Assembly (NCBI GenBank): GCA_025353105.1
Contig: JANXRG010000018.1
Coordinates: 1 to 50,245 of the forward strand
From: Verrucomicrobiota bacterium
Lineage (GTDB): Bacteria > Verrucomicrobiota > Verrucomicrobiia > Chthoniobacterales > SZAS-18
Direction of reading: 5' to 3'
Length of the DNA stretch: 50,245 nt
The position numbers and the translations under genes are program-made. Shown piece after piece: positions 8,042 to 44,062 of the stretch; the first letter of the stretch is position 1; every line of letters starts with the position of its first letter. The notes beneath the pieces were generated by a model. The model ran no database searches and was not told the origin of the DNA. It worked only from the letters and a program-made list of their open reading frames with translations.

Positions 8042-9844
8042 TTATTGCGTCAGCGCCGTGAGGATTTGGTAATCCGGATCGCTCAGCAGAAAAACGCCGG
8101 TTCGGCCGTTCAATGTCGCCGGCCACAGGCCTTCCGGCGTGCGCCGCCCGACGCGCAGTTCCATCGCTTCACTCCCAGCCTCCGCGCGCGCGCGGACCAT
8201 CAGCGTTGGGGCATCCAACCCGTGCGCGGCGACCGCCGGGCCCACCCAGCGCACCGCTCGCAGCCGCGAGATCAGCGCGGCCGCCGATGCGATCGCGGTC
8301 GGCGCGATCGCCGACTCCGCTTCCAGCCGGCGCCAGCTTCCACCTTCGCGGCGGAACTCGCGTGACCCGCCCGCCGCTTCAACCGTCAAGGCCTCGATCG
8401 ACACGGGGGTCTCGCCAAACAATCGCAAGGGCCGCCATGCGATTGGGTCCGGCGACACGACCGAAAGGACATCGGCATCGACGCGCGCCACGACTGGTCC
8501 CCCCTGCCCTTCGACCCGCACCAGCAAAGAGCCGTCCGGTCTCGGCGCGCCGAAGGAGAGCGTCGCGATCGGCGTCTCGCCGGCGGTGGATTCGGGCGTG
8601 TTCTCGGAACTGAATGAGGCGAACGTGACCCGCAGGCGCGGTGGATCGAGCTCGGCCGTCGCGGCCGTTGCGGCGTCGGCCGTAAAAAACTCCCGCACGC
8701 GAATTTCGGGCAGTCGCTTCAACAACCGCATGACCTCCGTGGCTTCGACCTCCGCGGGAACGGGCTTTAGCATCGTCCAGTCGTCACCCCGGCGTGCCAG
8801 CACCAGCTCCTCGCGGCCGGCGGCTTGAATGCGTACCCGGTCGACCAGATCTGGATTGAGCAAAAACAACGTCCGTTCGCGCAGCGCATCCGCGTCGAGA
8901 AGCAGCGCCTCCTCGATCGTCAGCGGCACGGCCGCCACGAGACGGCGCTCCGACGCGCGCACGTACACCGAATCCGGCGCGTAACGAGGGTCCGCGCGAT
9001 TCCCAAAAGAAATCTCCACCGCCGGAACGCTCGCGTCCGTCGGCGATTCGAATTCCAGCCGGACCAAACCGCGCGGTGCGGCGAGCCCGTAGGAAATGAG
9101 ATTGCCGAGATCCGGTCCCACAAACTGTCGGATCCCAGACGCGCACAACCGATCGAGCCAGTCGTTCACGGCCTTGTCGTCCGCGCGGGCCGCGACGGGT
9201 TGAATCATTTCCCAGCGGCCGCGTTCGCGCTGCAGTTCGATCGTGCCGGAAGCGTTCCGGATCGTGATGCGCGAGACGTCGACCGGCCGAACCTTGAGGA
9301 GCTGCCCGTCGCGAAAATCGTCGGGCGAGCGACGCGCCATCTGCCGGATCTCGTCGGGAACGACCACCACGTCAGGCGATCCAGCCAGCTTTGCGTAGCC
9401 TCGTCCCTCCACGGCTGTTGGCACGCCGAGCAGCAATTCGATTGGGTCCTCTCCGCCGCGATGGATGCGCACGCTCACGGTGGGAGGGCGCAGCCCGAAT
9501 TTCTCGAGGTCGGCCGGACCCGCGGGCATCGTGTCGAATTTGAGCGCGGTTTCGAGCGCCTCCACCAGCTCGCGCACCGCTCCGAGGTCGGCCCGGTCGG
9601 CCATGGGCGCCAGCACCTGCCACTCGCGATTCGGTCCCATCGCCAGCTCGATGCGGCCATCCGGACCGACGATCTCCAGCCGGTCAATCGGCGCGGCGGC
9701 GCGTCCCCCGCGTCCTGGGGGAAGGAGCGTGCGCTGGGCCAGAGCGGCCGTCTGCGTGCCGGGACGATCGCGATCAAACCAGACAAGATACGCGACGGCC
9801 AGAGTGGCCGCGGCGATGAGTGCGAGAGTGACTTTGCCGTTCAT
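8042..9844 (-). CDS. DUF4340 domain-containing protein
   Basis: The 600-residue protein has an N-terminal signal anchor (residues 3-23, VTLALIAAATLAVAYLVWF) and a long extracytoplasmic part. That part contains repeated DUF4340-like units of the pattern 'I..P.G.I.L.R..G.W.M..P' (for example around ELAMGPNREWQVLAP, ELQRERGRWEMIQP and LVLARRGDDWTMLKP). This family is regularly encoded next to GldG-like ABC auxiliary proteins, as here, where it starts 19 bp after one. Its biochemical role is unknown; it probably works with the ABC complex in the envelope. The open frame begins with TTG at 9847, but the ATG at 9844 is the better start. Confidence 0.85.
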   Translation of the reverse strand: MNGKVTLALIAAATLAVAYLVWFDRDRPGTQTAALAQRTLLPPGRGGRAAAPIDRLEIVGPDGRIELAMGPNREWQVLAPMADRADLGAVRELVEALETALKFDTMPAGPADLEKFGLRPPTVSVRIHRGGEDPIELLLGVPTAVEGRGYAKLAGSPDVVVVPDEIRQMARRSPDDFRDGQLLKVRPVDVSRITIRNASGTIELQRERGRWEMIQPVAARADDKAVNDWLDRLCASGIRQFVGPDLGNLISYGLAAPRGLVRLEFESPTDASVPAVEISFGNRADPRYAPDSVYVRASERRLVAAVPLTIEEALLLDADALRERTLFLLNPDLVDRVRIQAAGREELVLARRGDDWTMLKPVPAEVEATEVMRLLKRLPEIRVREFFTADAATAATAELDPPRLRVTFASFSSENTPESTAGETPIATLSFGAPRPDGSLLVRVEGQGGPVVARVDADVLSVVSPDPIAWRPLRLFGETPVSIEALTVEAAGGSREFRREGGSWRRLEAESAIAPTAIASAAALISRLRAVRWVGPAVAAHGLDAPTLMVRARAEAGSEAMELRVGRRTPEGLWPATLNGRTGVFLLSDPDYQILTALTQ

Positions 9845-9862
9845 CAACCGGGAGGGCGGAAT

Positions 9863-11317
9863 CTACGCGCGCCGCCGCCGCCACACGATGCCACCGATCA
9901 GGACCGCGACCGCGGGAAGTAGAATCACCACCACGACGAACAGCCGCGAGAGCTGCGTGCTGGTGATCGAAAGCGCGAACATCCGCATGTCCCGCGGCGG
10001 AATGCCGACGAGGGCCTCGCGCCGCAGCAGCCAGTTGACCGCCGCAATCGTAAAATCGGCGCATTGACGGGTGAGATTTTCGTCCAGGATGTACTTCACG
10101 CTGCTCACGGCGATCAGGCGCGAATTCTCCGGCGCCCCGGGCTCGCCCTTTTCGACCATCGCCGCGACCACCAGATCCTTACTCCGATGCTTCTCCGGGT
10201 TGAATTCGATACCGTTGACGCCCGCCTGCCGCCAGTCGGTCTCGCCCCAGAAACCCGCCACGGCTTGCAGCAGCGGCGATACGCGAATCTTCGCCGACGC
10301 CACGCGCCCGGCCTCAAGCTTGAGCGATTGCGTGCCGCCAACGAATTGCGGGTTCACGCCCCGAAATTTTTTCGCGATCGAGGAGTCGCCGATAAATTCG
10401 GTCGGGACGTCGGCGATGATGCCAGTCACACCGCCGAGGTTTGCAAAAATTCGATCGTCCTGCACCATGACGCCAAGGCTGCCGAGCCAGCCGTGCAACT
10501 GCGGCGTCTGGGCGCCCGGGTCGAGCAACACGAGGAGTCTCCCCTGTCGCTCCCAGTATTCGCGCAGGACGCGGAACTCGCTCTCGCTTGGATCGTACTT
10601 CGCCCCCGCGATCACCACGGCCACAGCGTCGCGCGGAATCGCCTCGACGGTCGAAAGCGACAGCTCCTTGAGCACGACATTTTCGCGCTCGATCAACATC
10701 GCCAGCACGCCCAATGGCGATTTCGCACCGAGTTCGGCCTCGCCCTGGCCGCGCACAAAGTAGATCACGCCCCGCTCCGGTTCGAGCAACTCAATCAACG
10801 CGCCCGTGATCGCCGGCTCGCCCTTGAAATTGGTCGGCTGCGCCGACTGCCCGAACGTTTCCGGCGAACGGTCGAAGTCGGCCAAATCGTCTGTCGTGAT
10901 CACCTTGGCCCGGCCGTCGTATTCGACCACGATGACATTTTCGCGCTGGCCGATCTTGTATTTCTGCGCCAGCTCGCCGGCGCGGGTTTGGTCGCGGAAC
11001 GGGTTCACCATCTCGACCGAAATCCCGCGGGAGGCGGCCTCGTACTGCAGCGCGACAAGATGCACCGGATCAAAGAGGATGTTCTCCGCGGCGAAGAACA
11101 GGATGAGCTTCGCCGGCTTCGGCAGGCCCAGCAGGAAGGACTTCGTCCGGTCGGTGAGCGGCGCGACGTTGCCGCGCGTGAGGTCGACGCGGCGGTGGTA
11201 CTTGAAGGCAAGCATGTTCGCGACCGCGACGAGCGCCAACACGGCCAGCCCGCGCCCGACCGCCTGCAGGCCAAGCTGCGCGCGGCGGACGACGGGGGAT
11301 GTCGGGGAGGCAGCCAT
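9863..11317 (-). CDS. GldG-like ABC transporter auxiliary protein
   Basis: This 484-residue protein matches the GldG/ABC-type uncharacterised transport-system family. It has an N-terminal membrane helix (about residues 25-42), a large periplasmic domain beginning RVDLTRGNVAPLTDRTKSFL, and a C-terminal helix (LFVVVVILLPAVAVLIGGIVW) followed by an Arg-rich end. The region 'YFVRGQGEAELG...' and 'DPGAQTPQLHGWLGSLGV' is typical of the family. In Bacteroidota, GldG works with GldA and GldF in gliding motility and secretion, but homologues are widespread in non-gliding bacteria, so no motility function is claimed. It lies between an ABC-2 permease gene (4 bp) and the DUF4340 gene. Confidence 0.88.
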   Translation of the reverse strand: MAASPTSPVVRRAQLGLQAVGRGLAVLALVAVANMLAFKYHRRVDLTRGNVAPLTDRTKSFLLGLPKPAKLILFFAAENILFDPVHLVALQYEAASRGISVEMVNPFRDQTRAGELAQKYKIGQRENVIVVEYDGRAKVITTDDLADFDRSPETFGQSAQPTNFKGEPAITGALIELLEPERGVIYFVRGQGEAELGAKSPLGVLAMLIERENVVLKELSLSTVEAIPRDAVAVVIAGAKYDPSESEFRVLREYWERQGRLLVLLDPGAQTPQLHGWLGSLGVMVQDDRIFANLGGVTGIIADVPTEFIGDSSIAKKFRGVNPQFVGGTQSLKLEAGRVASAKIRVSPLLQAVAGFWGETDWRQAGVNGIEFNPEKHRSKDLVVAAMVEKGEPGAPENSRLIAVSSVKYILDENLTRQCADFTIAAVNWLLRREALVGIPPRDMRMFALSITSTQLSRLFVVVVILLPAVAVLIGGIVWRRRRA

Positions 11318-27472: not shown

Positions 27473-28597
27473 TTATTTCCAGATCGGACGCTCGAGCCAG
27501 TAGCGGTCCGCCACGCCGGTCCGGAACGCTTCCAGCGCCTCGGGCGAGGAATTGATGCGCAGATTGCTGTAGGTCTGATCGCTGTTCTGCCAGCGCTCGT
27601 GCCAGTACACGGCTGCCTTCACGCGCGGCATTTTATGCGCCATCGACTCGAAGGCCTCCTTGAACCATTCGGCCTTGTCGCCCGTACTCGGAAACTCGCC
27701 GACACCGAATTCCGCGAGCATGATCGGCTTGGTCGGATCGAGTTCGCAAAGCTCGCGATACGGATCCTCCATCACATCGTAGAGATCGACCCACGCTTCA
27801 TTCGGAAATTGCTTGCCGTACGCGCTCACCGCCAGCCAGTCGACGTACTCGGGGCCTGGATAATATTGTTTGAGGCGATTCCATTCCTCGAATGGCTCCG
27901 AGAAATTATTCGCATGGAAGACCCAGAGAATATTCTTTGCGCCCCGCTGGCGGGCGCGGTCGACGACATAGCGGTAGCAGCGCTTGAATTTTTCCGGACC
28001 CTCGAAGCGGGCGGGATTCGACTTTGGGATCGGCTTGTTAGCGCCGTAGAAAACGCCGGACCACGGGAACCAATTGCCGTTCATCTCGAGTCCCCACGCC
28101 ACAAAGAATGGGCGGCCGTACTCGCGCGCGCCGTCGGCCCAGCGGTCGATGTATTCGTCCCATTTCCCGTCGAGAATCGCGTCGAGCGAATATCCATCCG
28201 GTCCCTTGTTCTGTTCGTAGGGTTTGTCCCACGGCGACCAGAACAGCAGCGGCATGCTGCCGTGGCGCGAGATGATGCGCAGGTTTGCGGATGGAAAGCT
28301 CTGCTGGCCCCAATAACTGGACGAAGCGACGATCGCCTGCTTCTTGCCGGCGAGCTCCTCAAACTCGAGCAGCTTCTCCAGGCTGAGATCATCCTCGTCG
28401 TCGCCCGAATCGATGTATGCCCCGAGGTATGCACCCGTCTCCGGCACCGCGATTCCGGCGGGCACGACCACAACCACGGTCTTCGGTTCCGGCTCGGGCC
28501 CGCACCCCGCGAGCGACAAGGCCGCCGCGATCAGGACAGACACCGCAACCGCAAAGCGGGGATGGCATCCGGCGAAAAAATTCAAGGTTGATGACAT
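27473..28597 (-). CDS. GH26-like glycoside hydrolase lipoprotein (downstream module copy)
   Basis: This 374-residue protein has a lipoprotein signal with lipobox LSLAGC, so it is membrane-anchored outside the cytoplasm. The mature part resembles a GH26 TIM barrel. It starts with VPETGAYLGAYIDSGDDEDDL, then VASSSYWGQQSFP, LLFWSPWDKPYEQ, the putative acid/base Glu in WGLEMNGNWFPWSG, YRYVVDRARQRGAKNILWVFH, and the putative nucleophile Glu in PIMLAEFGVGE. GH26 contains mainly beta-mannanases; the histidine usually before the acid/base motif is replaced here (GLE). The open frame continues upstream into the GT gene, but ATG 28597 gives the lipoprotein signal. It is the last of the four-gene operon and paralogous to 32022-33140. 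Confidence 0.8.
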   Translation of the reverse strand: MSSTLNFFAGCHPRFAVAVSVLIAAALSLAGCGPEPEPKTVVVVVPAGIAVPETGAYLGAYIDSGDDEDDLSLEKLLEFEELAGKKQAIVASSSYWGQQSFPSANLRIISRHGSMPLLFWSPWDKPYEQNKGPDGYSLDAILDGKWDEYIDRWADGAREYGRPFFVAWGLEMNGNWFPWSGVFYGANKPIPKSNPARFEGPEKFKRCYRYVVDRARQRGAKNILWVFHANNFSEPFEEWNRLKQYYPGPEYVDWLAVSAYGKQFPNEAWVDLYDVMEDPYRELCELDPTKPIMLAEFGVGEFPSTGDKAEWFKEAFESMAHKMPRVKAAVYWHERWQNSDQTYSNLRINSSPEALEAFRTGVADRYWLERPIWK

Positions 28598-28620
28598 GGG
28601 ATGGCAAATTGGCCGAACGA

Positions 28621-31600
28621 TCAAATCGAAGGCGCCTGCACATTGGCGGTGCGATCCAGTTTTCCCCATCCCACCAGCACGCCCTGAAACGCGCGGCGAA
28701 TCGCCTTCCACACGACCCAACTGAGCAGGATGCGATAGATGATCCGCATCGGCAGGATAATCCAGCTCTTCCACGCCGGTTCGCCCTCGATTTGGCAGGC
28801 GAGCACGGCGAGGAGAAAATCCACGGCGAGAAAAACGAGGAAATACGGCAGGGCCGCCGCGCCATTCCCAAGCAGGAGCGAAATGAGCAGGCCGAAATCG
28901 ACCAGCGGCGTGAGCGCGACCAGAAAGATCTGAAAGAACCAGATGCTCGGCAGGCTGAAGAAACCCAGGGCGCCGAAGCGCGGGTTCAGCACCATGTCGC
29001 GGTGTTTCCACAGGCATTGCATCGTCCCGTACGCCCAGCGAAAGCGCTGCTTCGCCAGCGTCCCCAGCGTCTCCGGCGCCTCGGTGTAGGCCACGGCGTC
29101 GGGCGCGTACGCCACGCGCCACTTCGCGCGATGCAGTGAAAGCGTGAGGTCCGTGTCCTCGGCCAGCGTGTCGTGGCTCAACCCGCCCACTTCCTGGTAC
29201 GCGCTCATGCGGATTGCGCTGATCGCGCCGGGCGCAACCGTGATGCAGTTCCAGTGCGCGTACGCGCGGCGATCGAGATTGAACCCGCAGATGTATTCCA
29301 GATCCTGACAACGCGCGATGAAGGCGCGCACGTTGCCGACGCGCGCGTGGCCCGATACCGCACCGACGCGCTCATCGGCCAGCGGCTGCACCAACTCCCG
29401 CAGGGTGTCGCGTTTGAACTGCGTGTCGGCATCGAGCAGGACCACGATGCCGTGCCGGGCCTGCGCGAAGCCGTTGGTGAGCGCGCCTGCCTTGCCGCCA
29501 TTCGGTTGATCGATCAGCCGCACGCGCGCATCCGCGGCGGCGAGGCGCGCGACGATTTCCGCGGTCGCATCGCGCGAGCCGTCGTTGATCACAAGCACCT
29601 CGATGGGGCCGGGATAGTCCGTGTCGAGCACGGAGCGGACGGTTTCCGCAATGACCTTCGCCTCGTTGAAGGCGGCGATGAGGATCGTGAGCGCGGGCTG
29701 AATCTTTCGGCTCCAGGGCGGCAAGCCGCGAAAGCGCCAAGCGAGCCAGATGAGAATGATCGTCCGGACCAGCACCAGCCCCGTCGCCACGAGCAACAAG
29801 GCCCAGACGAACGTCTCGACCGAATGAAAAATCCGGAAGCCCGTCCCGCTCACGAGACGGTAATAGAGCTGTCCCCGCGTGGTCGCTGGCGGCATGACGT
29901 CATCGCGCGTCTTACCGAGCAGATCGGAAATCAGGACGACTTCATCGCCGCGGTTGCGGAGGTACTCGATGATCTCGGGAAGCGCCTCCACGGTTTGCTC
30001 GCGGTTCCCGCCTGCATCGTGCATCAGGACGACGTTTCCGCCCTCAACACGGCCGTTTCGCACGCGCTCGATGATCCCAGCCACACCCGGGCGCGACCAG
30101 TCCTCGGTGTCGACATCCTCGAGCGCGATCCAGTATCCGAGATCCTGGGCGATGAGCAGCGGCTGGATTTCCTCCGCCCTGTTTGGATTGGAATCTGCGT
30201 TGTAGGGCGGGCGAAAAAGCGTCGTCGAGCGGCCGGAAATCGCCTCGATCAATCGCTGGGTTGCGTTCAGTTCGAGCCGGACTTGCGCATCGGGAATCAG
30301 GCCGACGTTCGGGTGCGTGTAGGTGTGATTGCCGATTTCATGTCCCTCGCGCACGATGCGCCGCACAAGGTCCGGGTAGAGTTCCGCGCGACTGCCGACG
30401 AGGAAGAACGAGGCCTTTACCCCCTCGCGTTTCAGAATGTCGAGAATCTGTGGCGTGTATTTCGGGTCGGGCCCGTCGTCGAACGTCAGCACGACCTTGC
30501 GCCCGGACGGATCGCCGCCCTGCCGGTACAGCGTCGTGTAGCTCGGAAATTCCGCGTACGTGACCAGGACGTTGCCATTCTCGTCGAAGATGACGCGGCG
30601 CGCGCCCTCCTCCCGTTCATTGCCGAGGCTGACCACCGCGCCGATGCCGACGTCTCCCACTTCCTCCCCGGGGTCGATGCGCGAAAGCTTCGCCAAATCC
30701 TCGGGACGCAATTTCGCGGGCATTTTCAACGCCTGCCAAATTCCCGCGTCCTCCATGCCGAGCCGGGAAATTCCCACCCCGCCGAAGCTCTTCCCGCGCA
30801 CGGTCGCGAGTTGATGGGCAAATGTGATCGCATCGAGGAACCAGACGGTATGGGCCGCGCCGGTTTCGTCGCGAAACACAAAATTCGGCTCGTATGTCGG
30901 TGGTGCGCTCGCCAGTCCCGTGAGGCCCGCATAGTCCGCCCGACACATCGCGTCGGAGAAAGCGATCGTCTGCGCCTTACGACGACCCTCGGTCCAGTCA
31001 TACCCATAACAGCCGAGGGCGGCGATCCACTGTTCCGAATGACCGTAATCCCCCGCGGTCTCGATCCACCCCTCAAACCATTCGCGCGAGGCAATCGGTC
31101 CCGGCGAATCCGTTTCGGAATTCTCGTCGTGCAGCACGGCGACGAATCGATCAGTGAACGCCGCCAGCCGATCGAGATCGAGCGAGTCGAAATCCTCGCC
31201 CATCGGCACGCTGATCCACAGCTCGCAGCCCGCGGCGTGCAGCGCGACCGCCATCTCCTCGTAAAACTCGGAGATTGGACCGTTGTACGCGGGATCGATT
31301 TGCTCGAAGTCGACGAGCAGTCCGCCGGCTTTCGCGCGGGCGACCCGCGCAACGAGATCCTGGACGAACGCAGCGCGCCGCACCGGCTCGCCCATCGCGT
31401 AATTTTCCACCGGTTCGGCCAGCCAGCGATCCGCGCCGCCGAGATTGGTGAGTTGTACCATCAGCACCAGCCCCTTCTGCGCGGCGAATGCATCGAGGGC
31501 TGCGTCGGTTTTTTCGTCCAGCTTGCCGTCAACTTTCAGGGTAAACCGCTCGACGCAGACGTGGGTGAGCTGATCGGCGTGCTTCGCAAGCGAGACCAGG

Positions 31601-32025
31601 CTGTCGTTGTCCCAACCCACGTAATATCCGAGCCGAATCTCGCGCCGATTGGAGCCCGTGATCGGGATTCCTTCCTTTCGCGTCGAAGGCGCCGGGGGAC
31701 CGCCCGCCTTCGTGGATTGGGCCGCAAGCCGCTTGAATTTGAGCCATTTCGGCGGCCGGGCGGTAGGGGGTGGAATCGCCGCGCCCGGCAGCTGCAGCGC
31801 CTTGAGCTGGGCTTTAAGTTGGGCGACGGAAGCAGGCAGGCGGAGCCAGGGCGCAATGAAGAGCGACTGGATAAACAGCACGATGCCCACGAGCCACAGC
31901 AGGCCGCCGATCGTCAGAGCCAGCCGGATGCGCGGCCACCGGCGACCCGCGCGGTCGAGGAAGATGAACGCGCGCTGGACGGCCGGTTCCGGCACGGACG
32001 CTGGCGGCTCGGGGGGCGGATTCAT
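28621..32025 (-). CDS. GH18-like / NodB deacetylase / family-2 glycosyltransferase fusion (downstream module copy)
   Basis: This multidomain membrane protein has 1134 residues. A membrane helix lies at about 36-56. A GH18/YaaH-like barrel follows (about 130-440, starting LGYYVGWDND) whose catalytic-strand motif is reduced to GGLLVDFEQ, keeping the final D-x-E. NodB deacetylase spans about 505-700 with all motifs: LTFDDGPD, GNHTYTHPN, FRPPYNAD, DTEDW and MHDAGG. A second helix lies at about 730-755. The cytoplasmic GT2 domain (about 775-1000) has LVINDGSRD, LLDADTQF (DxD), AEDTDLTL and the processive Q-x-x-R-W motif (QRFRWAYG). Further helices follow to the end. The inferred role is synthesis plus external deacetylation/trimming of an N-acetylhexosamine polymer. 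The start overlaps the preceding gene by 4 bp. Confidence 0.88.
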   Translation of the reverse strand: MNPPPEPPASVPEPAVQRAFIFLDRAGRRWPRIRLALTIGGLLWLVGIVLFIQSLFIAPWLRLPASVAQLKAQLKALQLPGAAIPPPTARPPKWLKFKRLAAQSTKAGGPPAPSTRKEGIPITGSNRREIRLGYYVGWDNDSLVSLAKHADQLTHVCVERFTLKVDGKLDEKTDAALDAFAAQKGLVLMVQLTNLGGADRWLAEPVENYAMGEPVRRAAFVQDLVARVARAKAGGLLVDFEQIDPAYNGPISEFYEEMAVALHAAGCELWISVPMGEDFDSLDLDRLAAFTDRFVAVLHDENSETDSPGPIASREWFEGWIETAGDYGHSEQWIAALGCYGYDWTEGRRKAQTIAFSDAMCRADYAGLTGLASAPPTYEPNFVFRDETGAAHTVWFLDAITFAHQLATVRGKSFGGVGISRLGMEDAGIWQALKMPAKLRPEDLAKLSRIDPGEEVGDVGIGAVVSLGNEREEGARRVIFDENGNVLVTYAEFPSYTTLYRQGGDPSGRKVVLTFDDGPDPKYTPQILDILKREGVKASFFLVGSRAELYPDLVRRIVREGHEIGNHTYTHPNVGLIPDAQVRLELNATQRLIEAISGRSTTLFRPPYNADSNPNRAEEIQPLLIAQDLGYWIALEDVDTEDWSRPGVAGIIERVRNGRVEGGNVVLMHDAGGNREQTVEALPEIIEYLRNRGDEVVLISDLLGKTRDDVMPPATTRGQLYYRLVSGTGFRIFHSVETFVWALLLVATGLVLVRTIILIWLAWRFRGLPPWSRKIQPALTILIAAFNEAKVIAETVRSVLDTDYPGPIEVLVINDGSRDATAEIVARLAAADARVRLIDQPNGGKAGALTNGFAQARHGIVVLLDADTQFKRDTLRELVQPLADERVGAVSGHARVGNVRAFIARCQDLEYICGFNLDRRAYAHWNCITVAPGAISAIRMSAYQEVGGLSHDTLAEDTDLTLSLHRAKWRVAYAPDAVAYTEAPETLGTLAKQRFRWAYGTMQCLWKHRDMVLNPRFGALGFFSLPSIWFFQIFLVALTPLVDFGLLISLLLGNGAAALPYFLVFLAVDFLLAVLACQIEGEPAWKSWIILPMRIIYRILLSWVVWKAIRRAFQGVLVGWGKLDRTANVQAPSI

Positions 32026-33140
32026 GGCTTCCAGATCGGGCGCTCAAGCCAATGAGGATCCGCGACGCTTTCGCGATACGCCTGCAGGGACTCGGCCGAT
32101 GAATTTACGCGCAAATTGCTGTAGCTGCTGTCCTCGTTTTGCCAGCGCTCGTGCCAGAATACGATCGCCTTCAGCCGTTCGTATCTCGGATCCTTCATCG
32201 CGTCAAAGGCCTCGCGAATCCAGGCCGCCTTGCTGCCCTTGTCCTTCGCTTCCGCGACGCCCCATTCCACCGCCATAATGGGCTTCGACGGATCCAACTG
32301 GCAAAGCTGGCGGTACGGCCAGTCGAATAGCGGCGTGAACTGACCCCATTTGTCCTTGGCGTACTGGGCCCCGTAGACGCTCAGGCCGAGCCAGTCACAG
32401 TATTCCGAGCCGGGGTAATATTGATCGGCCTGGTTCCAAAGATCGGTCGGGTACGGGTAATTCATCAGGTGGAGCACCCATTTCACGTTCCGTGCGCCGC
32501 GGGCGCGCACGCGGTCCACCACGTAACGGTAGGCTCGCTTGAACGTTTCGGGACCCTCGTACCGCGGCGGTTCCAGTTCCGTGTTCGGCATGACGCGACC
32601 CCCCCCATAGAAGGAGCCGGACCAGGGGAACCAGTTGCCATTGGGTTCGTTGGCAAACGACACGATCATCGGCTCGCCAAATTCGCGCGCCTCGTCGCCC
32701 CACCGGTCGATGTAGGTGTCGTGCTTTCCCGCGAGAATGCTCGTCAGCGAATATTGATCCAGCCCGAGGTTCTCCTTGTACGGACGATCCCACGGCGACC
32801 AGAAAATGAGAGGCACCGCCCCACTGCGCGCCACGATGCGCACATTTTCGGCTGGAAACGTCTGCTCGCCCCAGTAACTGGACGAGGCGACGATCGCCTG
32901 GCGCCGACCGATCAATTTCTCGAAGTCTTCGATCGCTTCGAGCGTTACGCTGTCCTCCCGCTCGCCGAAGTCGATGTACGCCCCGCTGTACGCGCCCCGC
33001 GTCGGCACGATAAGCTCATGCGCCTTGTTCGTCCGCTCGATCTTCGGCGGGAGCCGCGGGCTCGGGCACGCCGCGAGACATAACGCGAGCAGCGCGACCG
33101 TGGGCAGGCCAATGACAACCCCCGGGCGCATACGCGTCAC
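32022..33140 (-). CDS. GH26-like glycoside hydrolase lipoprotein (upstream module copy)
   Basis: The 372-residue paralogue of the 27473-28597 product has lipobox LAAC after a hydrophobic signal. It shares GAYSGAYIDFGEREDSVTL, VASSSYWGEQTFPAENVRI, LIFWSPWDRPYKEN, and YRYVVDRVRARGARNVKWVLH. Here the putative acid/base motif is ANEPNGNWFPWSG, closer to the classical N-E-P form, and the nucleophile motif is PIMAVEWGVAE. The GTG start overlaps the upstream GT gene stop (GTGA), with an in-frame ATG three codons later as an alternative, and the stop overlaps the next GT gene (ATGA). Such tight coupling implies the hydrolase and the fusion enzymes work together. Confidence 0.8.
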   Translation of the reverse strand: MTRMRPGVVIGLPTVALLALCLAACPSPRLPPKIERTNKAHELIVPTRGAYSGAYIDFGEREDSVTLEAIEDFEKLIGRRQAIVASSSYWGEQTFPAENVRIVARSGAVPLIFWSPWDRPYKENLGLDQYSLTSILAGKHDTYIDRWGDEAREFGEPMIVSFANEPNGNWFPWSGSFYGGGRVMPNTELEPPRYEGPETFKRAYRYVVDRVRARGARNVKWVLHLMNYPYPTDLWNQADQYYPGSEYCDWLGLSVYGAQYAKDKWGQFTPLFDWPYRQLCQLDPSKPIMAVEWGVAEAKDKGSKAAWIREAFDAMKDPRYERLKAIVFWHERWQNEDSSYSNLRVNSSAESLQAYRESVADPHWLERPIWKP

Positions 33141-36100
33141 GAGCCGGCGACGACTTCATCGCGCACCGGGAACGCCAGCTCCACGCCCGCAGTCCGCTCC
33201 AGCTTTCCCCAGCCGACCAGGGCACCGCGGAGCGCGCGCAAGATGGCCTTCCAGATGACGTAACTCAACAGCACCCGGTAGATGAGGCGCATCGGCACCA
33301 TAATCCACGCACGCCACAGCGGCTCCCGCTCCAGCGCGCACGCGGCGATGGCGAGGATGACGTCGATGCCCAGGAAGGCCATGAAGTAGGGCAGGACGGC
33401 GGCGCCGTTGCCGAGCAAAAGCGAAAGGATGAGCGCAACATCTATGAACGGCATCACGGCGACGAGGAAGATCTGGAAGAACCAGATGCTTGGCAGGCTG
33501 AACAAACCAAGTGCGCCGTAGCGCGGATTGCACGTCAGGTCGCGGTGTTTCCAAAGGCATTGCATCGTGCCGAACGCCCAGCGGAACCGCTGTTTGGCCA
33601 GCCCGCTGAAGGTCTCCGGCGCCTCCGTGTATGCGAGGGCGGCGGGCGTGTACGCGATGCGGTAGCCCGCGCGCTGCAGGGAGAGCGTGAGATCCGTGTC
33701 CTCCGCGAGCGTGTCGTGGGGCATGCCGCCCAACGCGCGCAACGCGCTCATGCGCAGAGCGCTGACGGCGCCCGGCGCCACGGTGATACAATTCCACGTG
33801 GCATAAGCGCGTCGATCGAGATTGAAGCCGCAGATGTACTCGAGCGCCTGGCATTTCGCAATGAGCGAGCGTGGATTGCCCACCTTCGCGTGACCGGAAA
33901 CCGCCGCCACCTTCGCGTCGCGCAGCGGCTGCACCAGCTGGCCAATCGTGTCGCTCCGGAATTTTGTGTCCGCGTCCAGCAACACCGCAATTTCGTGGCG
34001 CGCCTCGCGCAAGCCATGCGCGAGGGCCATCGATTTCCCGACGTTCGCCTGCGCCACAAGCCGCACGCGCCCATCACCCGCCGCGATTTCATTCACGATG
34101 GCTGAGGTCCCGTCGATCGAACCGTCGTCCACCACGATCACCTCAATCCCGCCTTCATAAACGCTCGCGAGCACAGAGCGAACGGTCGCGGCGATGACCT
34201 TGCCCTCGTTAAAGGCGGGAATCACCACCGAGACCGCGGGCGAAAATCCGGCCGTTTCCGCCTTGCGCCACGGGAAGCGCGCGGCGAGCCACAGCACGAG
34301 TAACGTGCGCGCGAGCACCAGTCCTGTGGCGGTCAGCAGCACCGCCCAGACGACCGACTCAATCGCGTGGATGACGCGGAAGCCAACGCCCGCCACCCGC
34401 TGCGCGAGGGATAGTTGCTCGGGCGCCACGCGGGGCATGACGTCGGCATACGTCTTGCCCAACATTCCGTGCAATGGCACCAGCTGATCCCCGCGACGCT
34501 GGAAATAGTCGATTAATTTCGGGAGGGCCTCGAGCGTCTCCGCGCGGTTGCCACCGGCATCATGCAACAGGACGACGTTTCCGCCCGCCTGCCGACCATG
34601 CCGCACCCGTGCCAGAATCTGGTCTACGCCCTGTCGCGTCCAGTCGAGCGAGTCGATGTCCTCGAGCGCAATCATGTATCCCATGCTCTGCGCGACGTTG
34701 AGCGGCCCAAGATCGTCGAACCGCGTAGGACCGGCGTCCGCGTTGTACGGTGGTCGGAAGAGCAGCGTTGAACGCCCCGTGATCGTCTCGATTAGCCGCT
34801 GCGTCGCGTTCAGCTCGAGCCGCAACTGCTGCTCCGAAGACGACGCAATGTTGGAATGCGTGTAGGTGTGGTTGCCCAGCTCGTGGCCTTCTTCGACGAT
34901 CCGCCGCACGATGCCCGGATAAAGTTCCGCACGGCTTCCCACGATGAAGAACGTGGCCTTCACGTTCTCGCGCTTCAACACATCCAGGATCAGCGGCGTC
35001 CAGGTCGGATCCGGCCCGTCGTCGAACGTCAGCGAGACCGCGTGCGGGTCCCCGTCGCCGCCCTGGCGAAAGAGCGTGGCAAAGCTGCCAAAATTTGTGT
35101 ACGTGCCCATCACGCGGCCATCGGGCGCCACTTCGACATTCCGGTTTCCGTCCTCGCGCTCGACGTTGATGCCGACGATGGCCCCGCGTCCGATGCCCGC
35201 GACGGATTCGCCCGATGGAATGCTGCGCAACGAGTGCAGCTCCTCCGCGGTCGGCGGCGCCGCCATTTTCAACGCGGCCCAGACTCCGGGATCCTCGCCG
35301 CCGATGCGATCAATGCCGATGCCCCCAAAGCCGCGGCGGCGCGTCACCTGGATTTGATTCAGAAACGTGATCGCATCCTGAAACCAGACGCGGTGCTTGA
35401 TGCCCTTTTGATCGTGAAAACAAAAATGCGGTTCGAACGTCGGGGCCTCCGCGCGGAATCCGTCGCGCTTGATTTCGTCGAGGCCCGCGTAATCCGCTCG
35501 GCTCATCGCCTCGGAAAACGTGATCGACTCGCCCGCGCCCCGACTTTCCGACCAGTCGTAACCGCCGGTCCCGAGCGTTGCGATCCATTGCGACGGTTCG
35601 CCGTAACCCAACGCCGTCTCGAGCCAGCCCTCGAACCATTCCTTTGAGGCCGTCGGCCCCGCTGGATCCTCACCGGAATTTTCGCCGTGCAGCACGGCCA
35701 CGAACCGGTCCACCACGCCCGCCAGTCGATCGAGCTGGAAGCTCACGAGGTCTTCACCCATGGGCACCGTGAGCCAGAGTTGGAGGCCATGTTCGCGCAG
35801 CGCGACCGACATCTCCATGTAAAACGCCGTCAGCGCGTCGTTGAAGGTCGGATCCATTCCCTCGAAATCCACGAGGACGCCGCCTGCCTTCGTGGCGGCC
35901 ACGCGCTCGATGAGGTGTTCGATGAATTCGCGCCGAAGCTCGGGCGTGCCGTTCGCGAGGAATTCCACCGGCTCCGCGATGCGCGTGCCGTCTTCACCCG
36001 CGTTGCTCAGCACCGGCATGACCACGAGGCCTTTGGCCGCGGCCAAACCGTCCAGCGCCGTGTCCGCCACTTCGTCCAGCCGGGGATGGGCGTCCGAGTC

Positions 36101-36586
36101 GAGGGCGACGCTGAATCGATCTACCGCCACGTGCGTGAGCTGATCCGCGTGCGCCACCAGCGATTGGAGGCTGGCAGCGTCGCCGTCGGAATAATACGCG
36201 AGTCGGATTTCCGGCAGACCCGTGCCAGGCTGGGCGATGCTGCCGCGAGTCTCCGCTGCGACCGCCCGCCGCGCGGGCGCGCGCGTTTTTTCCACGAGGC
36301 GCTTGAATTTGAGCCAGGTCGGCACCGAGCTGGGGGGAATCGTGCCCGCGATTTCAGCCGGCCGCTGCAGCGCCTTGAGCTGCTCCTTGAGGATTTGGTT
36401 AGACATCGGTTTCTGCAACCACGGGGTGACAAGCAGGGATTGCGCAAACCAAGCCATCGAGGCGAGTACGAGACTGCCCGTCAGCACCAGAGCCACGCGA
36501 ATGCGCGGCCAGCGGCGTCCCGCCGGGTCGAGAAAGACAAACGGCGCGGGACGTCCACCGGGTTGAGTGAAAGTCGGCTCAGGCAT
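33137..36586 (-). CDS. GH18-like / NodB deacetylase / family-2 glycosyltransferase fusion (upstream module copy)
   Basis: This 1149-residue protein is colinear with the 28621-32025 product. A helix lies at about 31-52. The GH18-like barrel (about 122-440) has the residual motif GGVLVDFEGMD. NodB (about 515-705) has LTFDDGPD, GNHTYTHSN, FRPPYNAD, DSLDW and LHDAGG. A helix lies at about 735-760. GT2 (about 780-1000) has VVDDGSIDG, LLDADTKF, AEDTDLTL and QRFRWAFG, and helices follow (VALILSLLLGNGAAVLPYFMAFL and others). It is the first gene of the operon, 117 bp after rarD on the same strand, so a promoter or read-through from rarD is possible. The two copies differ throughout while keeping every motif, indicating an old duplication. 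Confidence 0.88.
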   Translation of the reverse strand: MPEPTFTQPGGRPAPFVFLDPAGRRWPRIRVALVLTGSLVLASMAWFAQSLLVTPWLQKPMSNQILKEQLKALQRPAEIAGTIPPSSVPTWLKFKRLVEKTRAPARRAVAAETRGSIAQPGTGLPEIRLAYYSDGDAASLQSLVAHADQLTHVAVDRFSVALDSDAHPRLDEVADTALDGLAAAKGLVVMPVLSNAGEDGTRIAEPVEFLANGTPELRREFIEHLIERVAATKAGGVLVDFEGMDPTFNDALTAFYMEMSVALREHGLQLWLTVPMGEDLVSFQLDRLAGVVDRFVAVLHGENSGEDPAGPTASKEWFEGWLETALGYGEPSQWIATLGTGGYDWSESRGAGESITFSEAMSRADYAGLDEIKRDGFRAEAPTFEPHFCFHDQKGIKHRVWFQDAITFLNQIQVTRRRGFGGIGIDRIGGEDPGVWAALKMAAPPTAEELHSLRSIPSGESVAGIGRGAIVGINVEREDGNRNVEVAPDGRVMGTYTNFGSFATLFRQGGDGDPHAVSLTFDDGPDPTWTPLILDVLKRENVKATFFIVGSRAELYPGIVRRIVEEGHELGNHTYTHSNIASSSEQQLRLELNATQRLIETITGRSTLLFRPPYNADAGPTRFDDLGPLNVAQSMGYMIALEDIDSLDWTRQGVDQILARVRHGRQAGGNVVLLHDAGGNRAETLEALPKLIDYFQRRGDQLVPLHGMLGKTYADVMPRVAPEQLSLAQRVAGVGFRVIHAIESVVWAVLLTATGLVLARTLLVLWLAARFPWRKAETAGFSPAVSVVIPAFNEGKVIAATVRSVLASVYEGGIEVIVVDDGSIDGTSAIVNEIAAGDGRVRLVAQANVGKSMALAHGLREARHEIAVLLDADTKFRSDTIGQLVQPLRDAKVAAVSGHAKVGNPRSLIAKCQALEYICGFNLDRRAYATWNCITVAPGAVSALRMSALRALGGMPHDTLAEDTDLTLSLQRAGYRIAYTPAALAYTEAPETFSGLAKQRFRWAFGTMQCLWKHRDLTCNPRYGALGLFSLPSIWFFQIFLVAVMPFIDVALILSLLLGNGAAVLPYFMAFLGIDVILAIAACALEREPLWRAWIMVPMRLIYRVLLSYVIWKAILRALRGALVGWGKLERTAGVELAFPVRDEVVAGS

Positions 36587-40897: not shown

Positions 40898-41512
40898 TTA
40901 GACGGGAAAACGAGGCGGATTGCCCGCGGTAAAAACCTTGCACGCAATTTCGCCGAGTCGATCGAGGCATTTGCTCAAGCGTGAGCTGACCGTCTTCACG
41001 TTCAGCGCGAGCGCCGCGGCAATCTCATCGTAGCTCAGATCGGCGTAGTAACGCAGTTCGATAATTTCCCGGCACGGGTCGCCGAGCGCATCCAGGCACT
41101 GGCGCATCAACGCCGCGTTTTCCGTCCGCAGCAAAGCCGCGTCCGGCGACGGCGAATCGCTGGCCGGTTCGAAACCTGGGGCCGTCCCATCCGTGGTTGC
41201 GTCCAACGAGAGCGGCGTCAGTCCCCCACCCCGCTTGGCGGCCACCATCTTCGACCGAAAGTCGAAAGCTTTGTTCGATGCGATGCGCAGCAGCCACGTC
41301 TGGAAAGCGCTCCGTCCATCGAAAGTGTTCAGGCTGCGCACGACCGCGACAAACGTCTCCTGGCAGATTTCCTCCGCGTCCTCGCGCGAGAAGTCGCCCG
41401 AGAGCTGAAACACGAAGCGGAACGCCACGGGATAGTAGCGATCAAAGAGACCATCCCAAGCGGGCCCGTCGCCGGCGCGACAGCGCTGAAGGAGGGCGGC
41501 ATCGTCGGTCAT
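40898..41512 (-). CDS. ECF-family RNA polymerase sigma factor
   Basis: This sigma-70 family protein has 204 residues (211 if the ATG at 41533 is used). Region 2 is clear: DGLFDRYYPVAFRFVFQLSGDFSREDAEEICQETFVAVVRSL, with AFQTWLLRIASNKAFDFRSK for regions 2.3-2.4. A linker of about 30 residues with TTDGTAPGFEPAS follows, then region 4: CLDALGDPCREIIELRYYADLSYDEIAAALALNVKTVSSRLSKCLDRL, with the helix-turn-helix. It is divergent from the VIT-VWA gene and followed by a membrane protein gene, which suggests that it controls this envelope-protein cluster. The frame extends far upstream across the VIT-VWA gene, which is a shadow. Confidence 0.93.
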   Translation of the reverse strand: MTDDAALLQRCRAGDGPAWDGLFDRYYPVAFRFVFQLSGDFSREDAEEICQETFVAVVRSLNTFDGRSAFQTWLLRIASNKAFDFRSKMVAAKRGGGLTPLSLDATTDGTAPGFEPASDSPSPDAALLRTENAALMRQCLDALGDPCREIIELRYYADLSYDEIAAALALNVKTVSSRLSKCLDRLGEIACKVFTAGNPPRFPV

Positions 41513-41545
41513 TGTGGCATCCGAATGGGCCATCAGGCCCGCGAC

Positions 41546-41702
41546 GGGAAACTCGAAGTACGAAACTCGAAACTCGAAGAAAGTTAAAGTCTGAAGCGCA
41601 GAAAGCTCAAAGGGCGAGTGACCGCGACACGCCGTTTTGGAGGCTTTCGCCTCAAACCTTGGAGTTTTCTTCGAGTTTCGAACTTCGAATTTCGAGTTTC
41701 CC
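41546..41702. repeat. Inverted repeat with 34-37 bp arms made of gaaactcgaa-type units
   Basis: The left arm (41546-41579) and the reverse complement of the right arm (41669-41702) agree at 30 of 34 positions, and three more pairs extend inward. Both arms are built from degenerate cgaaactcgaa units. The loop of about 83-89 bp contains a small stem (gaggc-tttc-gcctc). It occupies most of the divergent region between the ECF sigma gene and the VIT-VWA gene. No transposase is present. Confidence 0.8.
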
Positions 41703-41727
41703 GAAGAATGCCGGAGCATTCTTCGGG
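41700..41727 (+). promoter_or_regulatory. Perfect 12-bp hairpin upstream of the VIT-VWA gene
   Basis: cccgaagaatgc and gcattcttcggg form a perfect 12-bp stem with a 4-base loop (cgga). It ends 19 bp before the ATG at 41747 and abuts the right arm of the inverted repeat. There is no T-run after it. In the RNA it would sit over the translation start region, where no Shine-Dalgarno is visible, so it could affect translation or transcript stability; this is inference. Confidence 0.6.
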
Positions 41728-41746
41728 CGTTGCCGACCAATCCGGT

Positions 41747-44062
41747 ATGCACTCGATCCTTCGCTCGTTCCTGCTCTTCCTGCTCCTCACCCTCGCCCCG
41801 GCCCTCGCCCGGGCTGATGGTTTCATCGTGGTCACGGAAACCTCGCACTTCCGCCCGATCCCCCATCACCCCGCCTTTCTCCCGCTCGAGGTCACCACCC
41901 ACAAGGTGAATGTCCGGATCGACGGACAAATCGCCACCACCAGCGTCGATCAGGAATTCTACAACCCGTCCGATCGCACGGTCGAAGGCACGTACTTTTT
42001 CCCCGTGCCGAAGGACGCGCAGATCGACAAGTTTCAGATGCAGATCGGCGACAAGCTGGCCGAGGCCGAGCTCCTCGACGCCGCCAGGGCCCGCGGCATC
42101 TACGAGGAAATCGTGCGCCAGGTGAAGGATCCAGCGCTGCTCGAGTACGCCGGCCGGCAGCTCTTCAAGGCGCGGGTGTTCCCGATCGAAGGAAAATCGA
42201 CGAAGCGACTCCGAATCACCTACACCGAACTCCTTCGGACGGACTCCGGCGCCTTGACCTATCGCTATCCGCTCGCGACGGAGAAATTCTCGGCGAAGCC
42301 GGTCAAGACCGTCGCCATCGAGGTCGAAGTCAAATCCGACAAGCCGTTCGCGTCGCTCTACTCGCCCAGCCACAAAATCGCGATCAAGCGCGATGATTCC
42401 GGCCGTCGCGCCACGATCAACTACGAAGCCCGGGACGAGAGGCCAGACAGCGACTTCGAGCTCGTCTGCACGGGCGAGTCCCGTGCCGCGGACGAGGTTC
42501 CGATCAACCTGCTCACCTACCGCGAGCCGAATGCGCCGGCCGACGAGGACGGCTACTTCCTGCTCCTCGCTGCACCCGCACCGGAGATGAAGACCACGGA
42601 GCGCAAACTCTCGGCCAAGGATGTGACTTTTGTGCTCGATACCTCGGGCTCGATGCAGGGGGTGAAGATGGACCAGGCCCGGAAGGCGCTCGCGTTCTGC
42701 GTTGGCCAGTTGAATCCCGAGGATCGCTTCGAGATCATCCGCTTCTCGTCCTCGACGGAGCCTCTCTTCGGCAAGCTCACCGAGGCAACCGCGGCCAATC
42801 GCAAGCGGGCGGATGATTTCATCACGCAACTCCGCGCGATGGGCGGCACCGCGATTCACGAGGCGCTCAAGACGGCCCTCTCCGCCCGGCCCACGCCCGC
42901 GGACCGTCCGTACATCGTCATCTTTCTCACCGACGGACTCGCCAACATCGGTCCTTCGCGCAATGAGGAAATCCTCGACATGGTGCAGAAGTCAATCGGC
43001 AGCTCCAGCGGCGTGCGGGTTTTCTCGTTCGGCGTCGGCACCGACGTGAACACGCACCTGCTCGACCAGCTCGCGCAGCAGACCCGGGCGTTTAGCACCT
43101 ACGTGTTCCCGAACGAGGATCTCGAGATCAAGCTCTCGAACTTCTTCGCGAAGATGACCGAGCCGGCGCTCACCGATCTTCGCGTCGAATTCAGCGGTGG
43201 CGAGGGCGCACGTTTCTCGCAGCGTTCGCCCAGCGATTTGCCGGATCTCTTCCAGGGCGACCAGCTCGCCGTCGTGGGCCGGTATCGCGGTAGCGGCGAG
43301 GCCGAGGTAAGACTCACCGGCAAACGCACCGGCGTGGAAAAAAGTTTCACGGTGAAGGTGAAGTTGGATCCGGACAAAGATTCCAGCGCCGCGCGCGAAT
43401 TCATCCCGCGCCTCTGGGCCACGCGTCGCGTCGCGTTCCTGCTCGACGAGATCCGACTGCGGGGCGAAAACGCCGAGATCCGCGACGAGGTTACAAAGGT
43501 CGCGCGCAAATTCGGGATCGTCACGCCCTACACGGCGTTCCTCATCCTCGAGGACGAGGCGAAGAAAAATGTTCCAACCGAGCGCCGCCTGCTCGGAAAG
43601 CTCGACGGCGATCGTGGCGCGCGCGATGTCGCCGCCACCGCTTACAACGATTTGAAGGAGCAAACCGGCTCCGCCGCGGTCGGCGGCGCCGAGAGCCAGA
43701 ACCACGCCCGCCGCGCGATGCAGGCGACCGACGCGCTGCGCTCGGCCAACGAGTACGCCCTTGCCGCGCCGAAGTCCGCGTCGGCGCCCGTCGCAGTCCG
43801 CGAGGCCGCCGGCCGGGTGGAGCAATTCGCGCAGCAGGGCTCGCGCTACGTGAACGGCCGCGCCTTCTTCCAGAACGGATCGCAGTGGGTCGACAGCACC
43901 ATGCAGAATCACAAAGACGGAGCCGCCGCGCAGCGCGTCCAGTTCAACTCGACGGCATACTTCGCCCTCCTCAAGAAGCATCCCGAAGCCACCGCGTGGT
44001 TCGCCCTTGGCTCGAACATCGCCCTCTCCCTCGGTGGCACCGACTACGAGATCTACAACTGA
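41747..44062 (+). CDS. VIT and VWA domain-containing protein
   Basis: The 771-residue secreted or envelope protein resembles inter-alpha-trypsin inhibitor heavy chains. The signal peptide is residues 1-23 (LLFLLLTLAPALARA). The VIT domain (about 40-165) has TTSVDQEFYNPSDRTVEGTYFFPVP and ARGIYEEIVRQVKDPALLEY. The VWA domain (about 293-470) has the MIDAS set D298-x-S-x-S (DTSGSMQG), the Thr in GGTAIHEAL and the Asp in FLTDGLAN. A C-terminal region of about 290 residues follows, including VARKFGIVTPYTAFLILEDE, common in this family, then AVPTERR-type charged sequence and a VNGRAFFQNGSQWVD segment. It likely binds a protein partner through metal. It is 48 bp before another VWA gene and divergent from the ECF sigma factor. 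Confidence 0.9.
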   Translation: MHSILRSFLLFLLLTLAPALARADGFIVVTETSHFRPIPHHPAFLPLEVTTHKVNVRIDGQIATTSVDQEFYNPSDRTVEGTYFFPVPKDAQIDKFQMQIGDKLAEAELLDAARARGIYEEIVRQVKDPALLEYAGRQLFKARVFPIEGKSTKRLRITYTELLRTDSGALTYRYPLATEKFSAKPVKTVAIEVEVKSDKPFASLYSPSHKIAIKRDDSGRRATINYEARDERPDSDFELVCTGESRAADEVPINLLTYREPNAPADEDGYFLLLAAPAPEMKTTERKLSAKDVTFVLDTSGSMQGVKMDQARKALAFCVGQLNPEDRFEIIRFSSSTEPLFGKLTEATAANRKRADDFITQLRAMGGTAIHEALKTALSARPTPADRPYIVIFLTDGLANIGPSRNEEILDMVQKSIGSSSGVRVFSFGVGTDVNTHLLDQLAQQTRAFSTYVFPNEDLEIKLSNFFAKMTEPALTDLRVEFSGGEGARFSQRSPSDLPDLFQGDQLAVVGRYRGSGEAEVRLTGKRTGVEKSFTVKVKLDPDKDSSAAREFIPRLWATRRVAFLLDEIRLRGENAEIRDEVTKVARKFGIVTPYTAFLILEDEAKKNVPTERRLLGKLDGDRGARDVAATAYNDLKEQTGSAAVGGAESQNHARRAMQATDALRSANEYALAAPKSASAPVAVREAAGRVEQFAQQGSRYVNGRAFFQNGSQWVDSTMQNHKDGAAAQRVQFNSTAYFALLKKHPEATAWFALGSNIALSLGGTDYEIYN

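Follow-up and report, generated by a model that had tools for sequence, protein, structure and literature searches.

Gram-negative PNAG systems split their functions among PgaC, PgaB, PgaA and PgaD, with PgaB combining a CE4 domain and a GH153 domain whose probable catalytic residue in Bordetella is Asp474 (PMC5933820). In Streptomyces, MatB, which is required for PNAG, joins an extracellular CE4 domain to a cytoplasmic GT2 domain by a membrane helix (PMC5972031). Bundalovic-Torma et al. also described GT-deacetylase fusions, in pga-like operons without pgaA, and proposed that deacetylation takes place at the inner membrane (PMC7112194). The longer GH18-CE4-GT2 architecture is already known and uncharacterised: it is listed for Acetivibrio cellulolyticus ZP_09465738, with no function given (PMC3413522). 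A literature search conducted without preprints or subscription papers found no characterised GH18-CE4-GT2 or GT2-GH26 system, no known product and, for Verrucomicrobiota, no characterised surface polymer of this synthase type. Members of this phylum are abundant in soil, and the host of the locus presented here is a soil-type bacterium.

The locus lies in a window of 50,245 nucleotides, the whole stretch of DNA analysed. Two fusion genes, each followed by a GH26 lipoprotein gene, are arranged head to tail as four minus-strand open reading frames (Table 1), all found at the positions given by the original prediction. The same prediction had the junctions partly right: fusion 1/lipoprotein 1 and lipoprotein 1/fusion 2 are indeed 4-bp stop/start overlaps, but the last junction, from fusion 2 to lipoprotein 2, is a 23-bp gap and not a 24-bp overlap. 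The fusions share 58% identity over 1146 columns and the lipoproteins 57% over 329 columns, and the two pairs of fusion and GH26 genes are paralogous. A role in anti-phage defence was rejected, PADLOC giving no match for fusion 1, fusion 2 or lipoprotein 1. Elsewhere in the window, a DUF4340 protein adjoins an ABC_transp_aux protein (8042-11317), a pair that we take to resemble a gliding-type ABC export cluster. A 653-aa ORF with an assumed GTG start (40898-42859) has an ECF sigma-70 domain confined to its final third, its first 450 residues having no Pfam match at E<=1e-5.

Table 1. Features of the two fusion and GH26 gene pairs, in coordinates of the window
Feature	Position	Strand	Basis or remark
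Fusion copy 1 (GH18-like / NodB-CE4 / GT2), 1149 aa	33137..36586	-	orthologous to the one copy present in each of the two other genus genomes
GH18-like domain, copy 1, ~aa 126-444	35255..36211	-	alignment to copy 2 (predicted GH18 fold) and motifs; no Pfam match
NodB/CE4 deacetylase domain, copy 1, ~aa 509-711	34454..35062	-	Pfam; five motifs intact
GT2 synthase domain, copy 1, ~aa 780-1016	33539..34249	-	Pfam; DDG, DAD, ED, QRFRW
GH26 lipoprotein 1, 372 aa, GTG start, lipobox LAAC, both catalytic Glu present	32022..33140	-	
Fusion copy 2, 1134 aa	28621..32025	-	tree position outside the genus orthologues
N-terminal transmembrane helix, copy 2, aa 39-57	31855..31911	-	hydropathy; helix in predicted model
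GH18-like domain, copy 2, aa 128-438	30712..31644	-	predicted fold, phmmer, motifs
Catalytic-position Glu241 codon, GH18-like domain of copy 2	31303-31305	-	
NodB/CE4 domain, copy 2, aa 503-705	29911..30519	-	Pfam, motifs
GT2 synthase domain, copy 2, aa 774-1010	28996..29706	-	Pfam, motifs, fold
C-terminal transmembrane helices, copy 2, aa 1015-1118	28672..28983	-	hydropathy, predicted model
GH26 lipoprotein 2, 374 aa, ATG at 28597, lipobox LAGC, (beta/alpha)8 barrel closest to Lic26A lichenase	27473..28597	-	

The NodB domain (PF01522) scores 120 and 124 bits in the two fusions against a Pfam cut-off of 23.1, and the GT2 domain is far above its own cut-off in both. A motif check found the five NodB motifs and the processive-synthase motifs of GT2 all intact in both copies, as had been claimed. 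The base Asp, metal D/H/H and catalytic His of CE4 are present in 62/62 fusions of the GH26-linked family, and the DDG, DxD, ED and QxxRW motifs of GT2 are likewise invariant in all 62. Within NodB and GT2, both window copies carry every residue that at least 92% of the family shares, and both are therefore without sign of decay or of new specificity. Hydropathy and a predicted model of copy 2 give an N-terminal transmembrane helix, about 650 outer residues with the GH18-like and NodB domains, a further transmembrane helix, the GT2 domain and C-terminal transmembrane helices. The predicted topology places the GH18-like and NodB domains on the outer side of the membrane and the synthase on the inner side. 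With a mean pLDDT of 78.6 and a pTM of 0.53, the relative placement of the domains in this model is unreliable; its GT2 and membrane part matches hyaluronan synthase (Z 32.8, rmsd 3.2, 376 aligned).

Among NCBIfam models, both copies score best with PgaC/IcaA (TIGR03937), at 173 and 180 bits, far below the equivalog cut-off of 422 bits. A GT2 tree built to assign the domain to one synthase family does not separate the PgaC, MatB-like and fusion branches. With a best score so far below its cut-off and a tree without resolution, the polymer is likely, though not certain, to be an N-acetylhexosamine glycan. The fusions also match NodB and NodC models, and the SleL-type GH18 and PdaA/PgdA-type CE4 relatives act on peptidoglycan. 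Both observations would suit a NodC/NodB-like system making short de-N-acetylated chito-oligosaccharides, or modifying an envelope glycan, instead of a long exopolysaccharide. We regard such a product as very unlikely, as NodC is a poorer match than PgaC and long-chain synthase systems typically have a secreted glycanase linked to them (BcsZ, PgaB).

The association of the fusion with GH26 extends far beyond the window. Among 57 related genomes of the same genus, family and order, the fusion occurs in 32 and GH26 in exactly the same 32. In a class-wide sample of 286 genomes, which overlaps the former, the fusion (E<=1e-90) and GH26 (E<=1e-40) were each found in 49 genomes and together in 48 (Fisher p ~2e-52, a value that ignores relatedness). 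One exception, G523, is 73% complete with its fusion at a contig end, and the other, G453, has GH26 and only a NodB-like match. The two genes are usually adjacent and often overlapping; in genomes such as G030, G050, G446 and G459 they are unlinked yet both present. Co-occurrence even when the genes are apart argues for a functional tie and not for hitch-hiking. The proposal of a GH26 dedicated to the fusion, for which co-occurrence elsewhere was the suggested test, is thus supported by 48 of the 49 fusion-bearing genomes.

All matches at E<=1e-150 in a phylum-wide sample fall within the class of the window. In two further phylum-level groups, GH26 was adjacent in 7/7 full-length close relatives read; these other-phylum genomes are MAGs, so that mis-binning is possible for single cases. 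The two-gene unit is conserved across the whole class and beyond. Linkage to a wider EPS cluster was rejected, since the neighbourhoods of relatives show no third gene conserved beside the unit beyond local synteny. They show no linked outer-membrane exporter and no PgaA/PgaD-like conserved neighbour, and E. coli PgaA, a single distant query, had no match in the genome. The fusion of G022 is broken near the GT2 start into two overlapping ORFs (L028:7986-11328 / L076:6682-10024), whether by frameshift, by sequencing error or by natural splitting.

Both lipoproteins pass the Pfam cut-off for GH26 (PF02156; 42.6 and 44.8 bits against 20.2), and the acid/base and nucleophile Glu are both present in 62/62 proteins. 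Together with a GH26 barrel fold, these results uphold the GH26-like assignment made from the DNA alone. The model of lipoprotein 2 (mean pLDDT 87.6) is closest to the lichenase CtLic26A, with Z 35.8, rmsd 1.9, 271 aligned residues and 32% identity, against Z of about 27 for mannanases and other GH26. Lipid anchoring is common, not universal: by a rough pattern match, some relatives carry nothing more than a signal-peptide-like N-terminus. The genome also has, outside the window, a third and more distant GH26 gene (G000:C8:31943-32926, L007; 30-38% identity to the window lipoproteins), and several relatives of the order have similar second GH26 genes at 33-39% identity.

To our knowledge, no GH26 cuts amino-sugar polymers. 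The modelled likeness of the window GH26 to a beta-1,3-1,4-glucanase counts as genuine evidence against PNAG and poses the chief question about the unit. It lends weight to a beta-glucan, neutral or mixed and resembling cellulose or a mixed-linkage glucan, from which NodB would remove O-acetyl groups or in which it would act on only a few amino sugars. A plasmid of Deinococcus taeanensis (L107:4585-8666) points the same way, with a GT2 gene that overlaps a GH26 gene by 4 bp, a GH16 gene nearby and no NodB or GH18. The beta-glucan is nevertheless hard to reconcile with the deacetylase domain, whose matches are GlcNAc-polymer and peptidoglycan deacetylases and whose CE4 catalytic residues are all invariant, or with a GT2 that scores best with PgaC and much better than with BcsA. 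We therefore hold it to be quite unlikely. Should the GH26 act on an N-acetylhexosamine product, it would represent a new specificity for its family.

The GH18-like domain was not detected by Pfam (PF00704) in the window fusions, even at E<=1. By phmmer it clearly matches 5jh8, YdhD and SleL, and the predicted model of copy 2 has a (beta/alpha)8 GH18 fold (Z 35.6, rmsd 2.0 and 305 aligned residues with chitinase 5jh8). Both by sequence and by fold it is closest to SleL/chitinase-type GH18; GH153, not compared directly, is absent among the fold matches listed for the fusion, which is not evidence of absence. In both window copies the D-x-E motif survives as VDFE, in register with 5jh8 and further GH18 proteins, but the MxYD Tyr is replaced, copy 1 reading VLHGE. 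Across the 62 distinct fusions of the GH26-linked family, this Tyr is kept in 14 and its position is His in half, as in copy 2. The catalytic position is E in 30, Q in 18, S in 5, N in 3, G in 3, D in 2 and R in 1, with an entropy at the median of the columns of the domain and a minimum of 10 changes along the tree. Across the family, the GH18 domain is not preserved as an enzyme, and constraint on its catalytic Glu has been lost. It is better read as a pseudo-chitinase that would guide the chain, although both window copies still have the Glu. The original prediction of a working editing and release enzyme sits poorly with a catalytic Glu in only 30/62 relatives.

The VDFE motif would be expected if GH18, NodB and GT2 were all working enzymes in one chain, the GH26 being an additional release enzyme. 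So would the GH26-less relatives in Sphingomonas, Sphingobium, Novosphingobium, Deinococcus and Prevotella, whose GH18 domains keep both the Glu and the MxYD Tyr. Such an arrangement seems unlikely to us: the Glu is lost in 32/62 of the GH26-linked family, among them the nearest orthologue, G001, which has Q; the MxYD Tyr is so often replaced by His; and PF00704, blind to the domain here, recognises those of the Sphingomonas, Deinococcus and Prevotella fusions. The synthase-borne 'scissors' seem instead to be decaying while a separate secreted GH26 is always kept. The sphingomonad fusions have VirJ/AcvB-like and lysyl-phosphatidylglycerol synthase (MprF-like) genes nearby (L051:11105-14450, L047:6822-16595), which hints at a connection to envelope charge.

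Two Rhodobacterales fusions have also lost the GH18 Glu. In Sulfitobacter and Limimaricola (L050:10949-13486; L109:8490-10979), a DUF3131 gene, possibly a parallel partner hydrolase, comes after the GH18-NodB-GT2 gene. A strict rule by which loss of the Glu goes with a neighbouring hydrolase fails for the divergent fusions L143 and L144, which have lost it with no linked GH26 (their neighbours were listed, not scanned against Pfam). Loss of GH18 activity therefore does not require GH26, and the link between Glu loss and a hydrolase partner is suggestive, not a rule.

The unit is single-copy among relatives, and two copies occur only in the genome of the window. In a reduced tree, fusion 1 forms a clade with the sole fusions of the two other genomes in the genus (support 100/99), while fusion 2 branches outside the genus orthologues and fusion 1. 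Per-domain trees agree on the four-member clade, NodB with weak support. A sister relationship of the window fusions, and with it a recent tandem duplication, was rejected by the AU test (p-AU 0.00014). GH26 1 groups with the genus orthologues and GH26 2 does not; a genus clade was rejected for GH26 (p-AU 0.0009; p 0.009 with the family included), and with it a duplication of the whole two-gene unit with a shared history. On these trees, the GH26 genes have different histories, with at least one GH26 exchanged. Since copy 1 falls with the genus orthologues and copy 2 outside, the duplication or the gain of a second copy predates the genus, with later loss in the two relatives, or transfer. In the stretches read, the flanks of the window have no synteny with genus relatives. 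The description as a tandem duplication with divergence thus holds for the adjacent paralogous pairs and not for a recent event; because the copies are older than the genus, 'tandem-duplicated' is loose wording. The added suggestion of two polymers or two conditions found no support, there being no active-site difference between the copies.

Taken together, these data make it probable, if only just, that the locus encodes a membrane synthase-deacetylase of a PNAG- or chitin-like glycan with a near-obligate secreted GH26 partner. A one-chain synthase and deacetylase with its own GH26, as first proposed, is supported by the 48-genome co-occurrence and by the invariant GH26 Glu. A processive GT2 would sit in the inner membrane, its catalytic domain cytoplasmic, with the NodB N-deacetylase and the GH18-fold domain of the same chain on the outer face. 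The synthase would most likely polymerise a beta-linked N-acetylhexosamine glycan. The emerging chain would be bound and guided by the GH18-fold domain, and NodB would take off some acetyl groups as the chain leaves the membrane, presumably in that order. The separate secreted, here lipid-anchored, GH26 glycanase would cut or clear the chain and thus take the role played by the hydrolase half of PgaB, or by BcsZ, in other synthase systems.

More tentatively, and with less probability than the preceding reading, a class-wide envelope-polymer system may be undergoing a hydrolase swap. The GH18 of the synthase would be turning into a non-catalytic chain-guiding lectin, and a GH26 with a specificity new to its family, for a partially de-N-acetylated amino-sugar polymer, would now be the obligate processor. 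The Rhodobacterales fusions may be a parallel case. The near-obligate pairing provides a minimal test case for the cooperation of synthase, deacetylase and hydrolase. The natural loss and retention of the GH18 Glu among close relatives would allow a test of whether the hydrolase half of such systems has to cut or only to bind, as has also been asked of PgaB in export.

Among characterised proteins, the closest is Streptomyces MatB (CE4-GT2, PNAG). Its layout, with CE4 outside and GT2 inside in one membrane protein, is present in the window fusion according to hydropathy and the predicted model, and the PgaC-like GT2 and PgdA/NodB-like CE4 are further points of likeness. However, MatB has neither a GH18 domain nor a GH26 partner, needs MatA and belongs to a Gram-positive bacterium. 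PgaABCD of E. coli likewise brings a GT2, a NodB-type deacetylase and a TIM-barrel glycan-binding or -cleaving domain to one polymer, but as separate proteins, with a PgaA porin, a PgaD subunit and the order CE4 then GH153 in PgaB. The domain order is reversed in the window fusions, and the analogy drawn originally with PgaB is one of function only, the hydrolase being GH153 in PgaB and a SleL/chitinase-type GH18 fold here. The sphingomonad, Deinococcus and Prevotella fusions have the same domain order and align over their full length at ~35-38% identity; these plasmid-borne genes differ from the window unit in their intact GH18 Glu and in having no neighbouring GH26. CtLic26A of Clostridium thermocellum (PDB 2bv9/2cip) shares the fold and both catalytic Glu with the window lipoproteins, but is a degradative cellulosomal module, whereas these are secreted single-domain lipoproteins tied to a synthase. 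Finally, chitinase-like proteins (YKL-40-type, IDGF, SI-CLP, AgBR1) appear among the fold matches of the GH18-like domain and resemble it in keeping the GH18 fold with a catalytic Glu free to change; they are secreted, lectin-like animal proteins, whereas the domain described here is tethered to a synthase.
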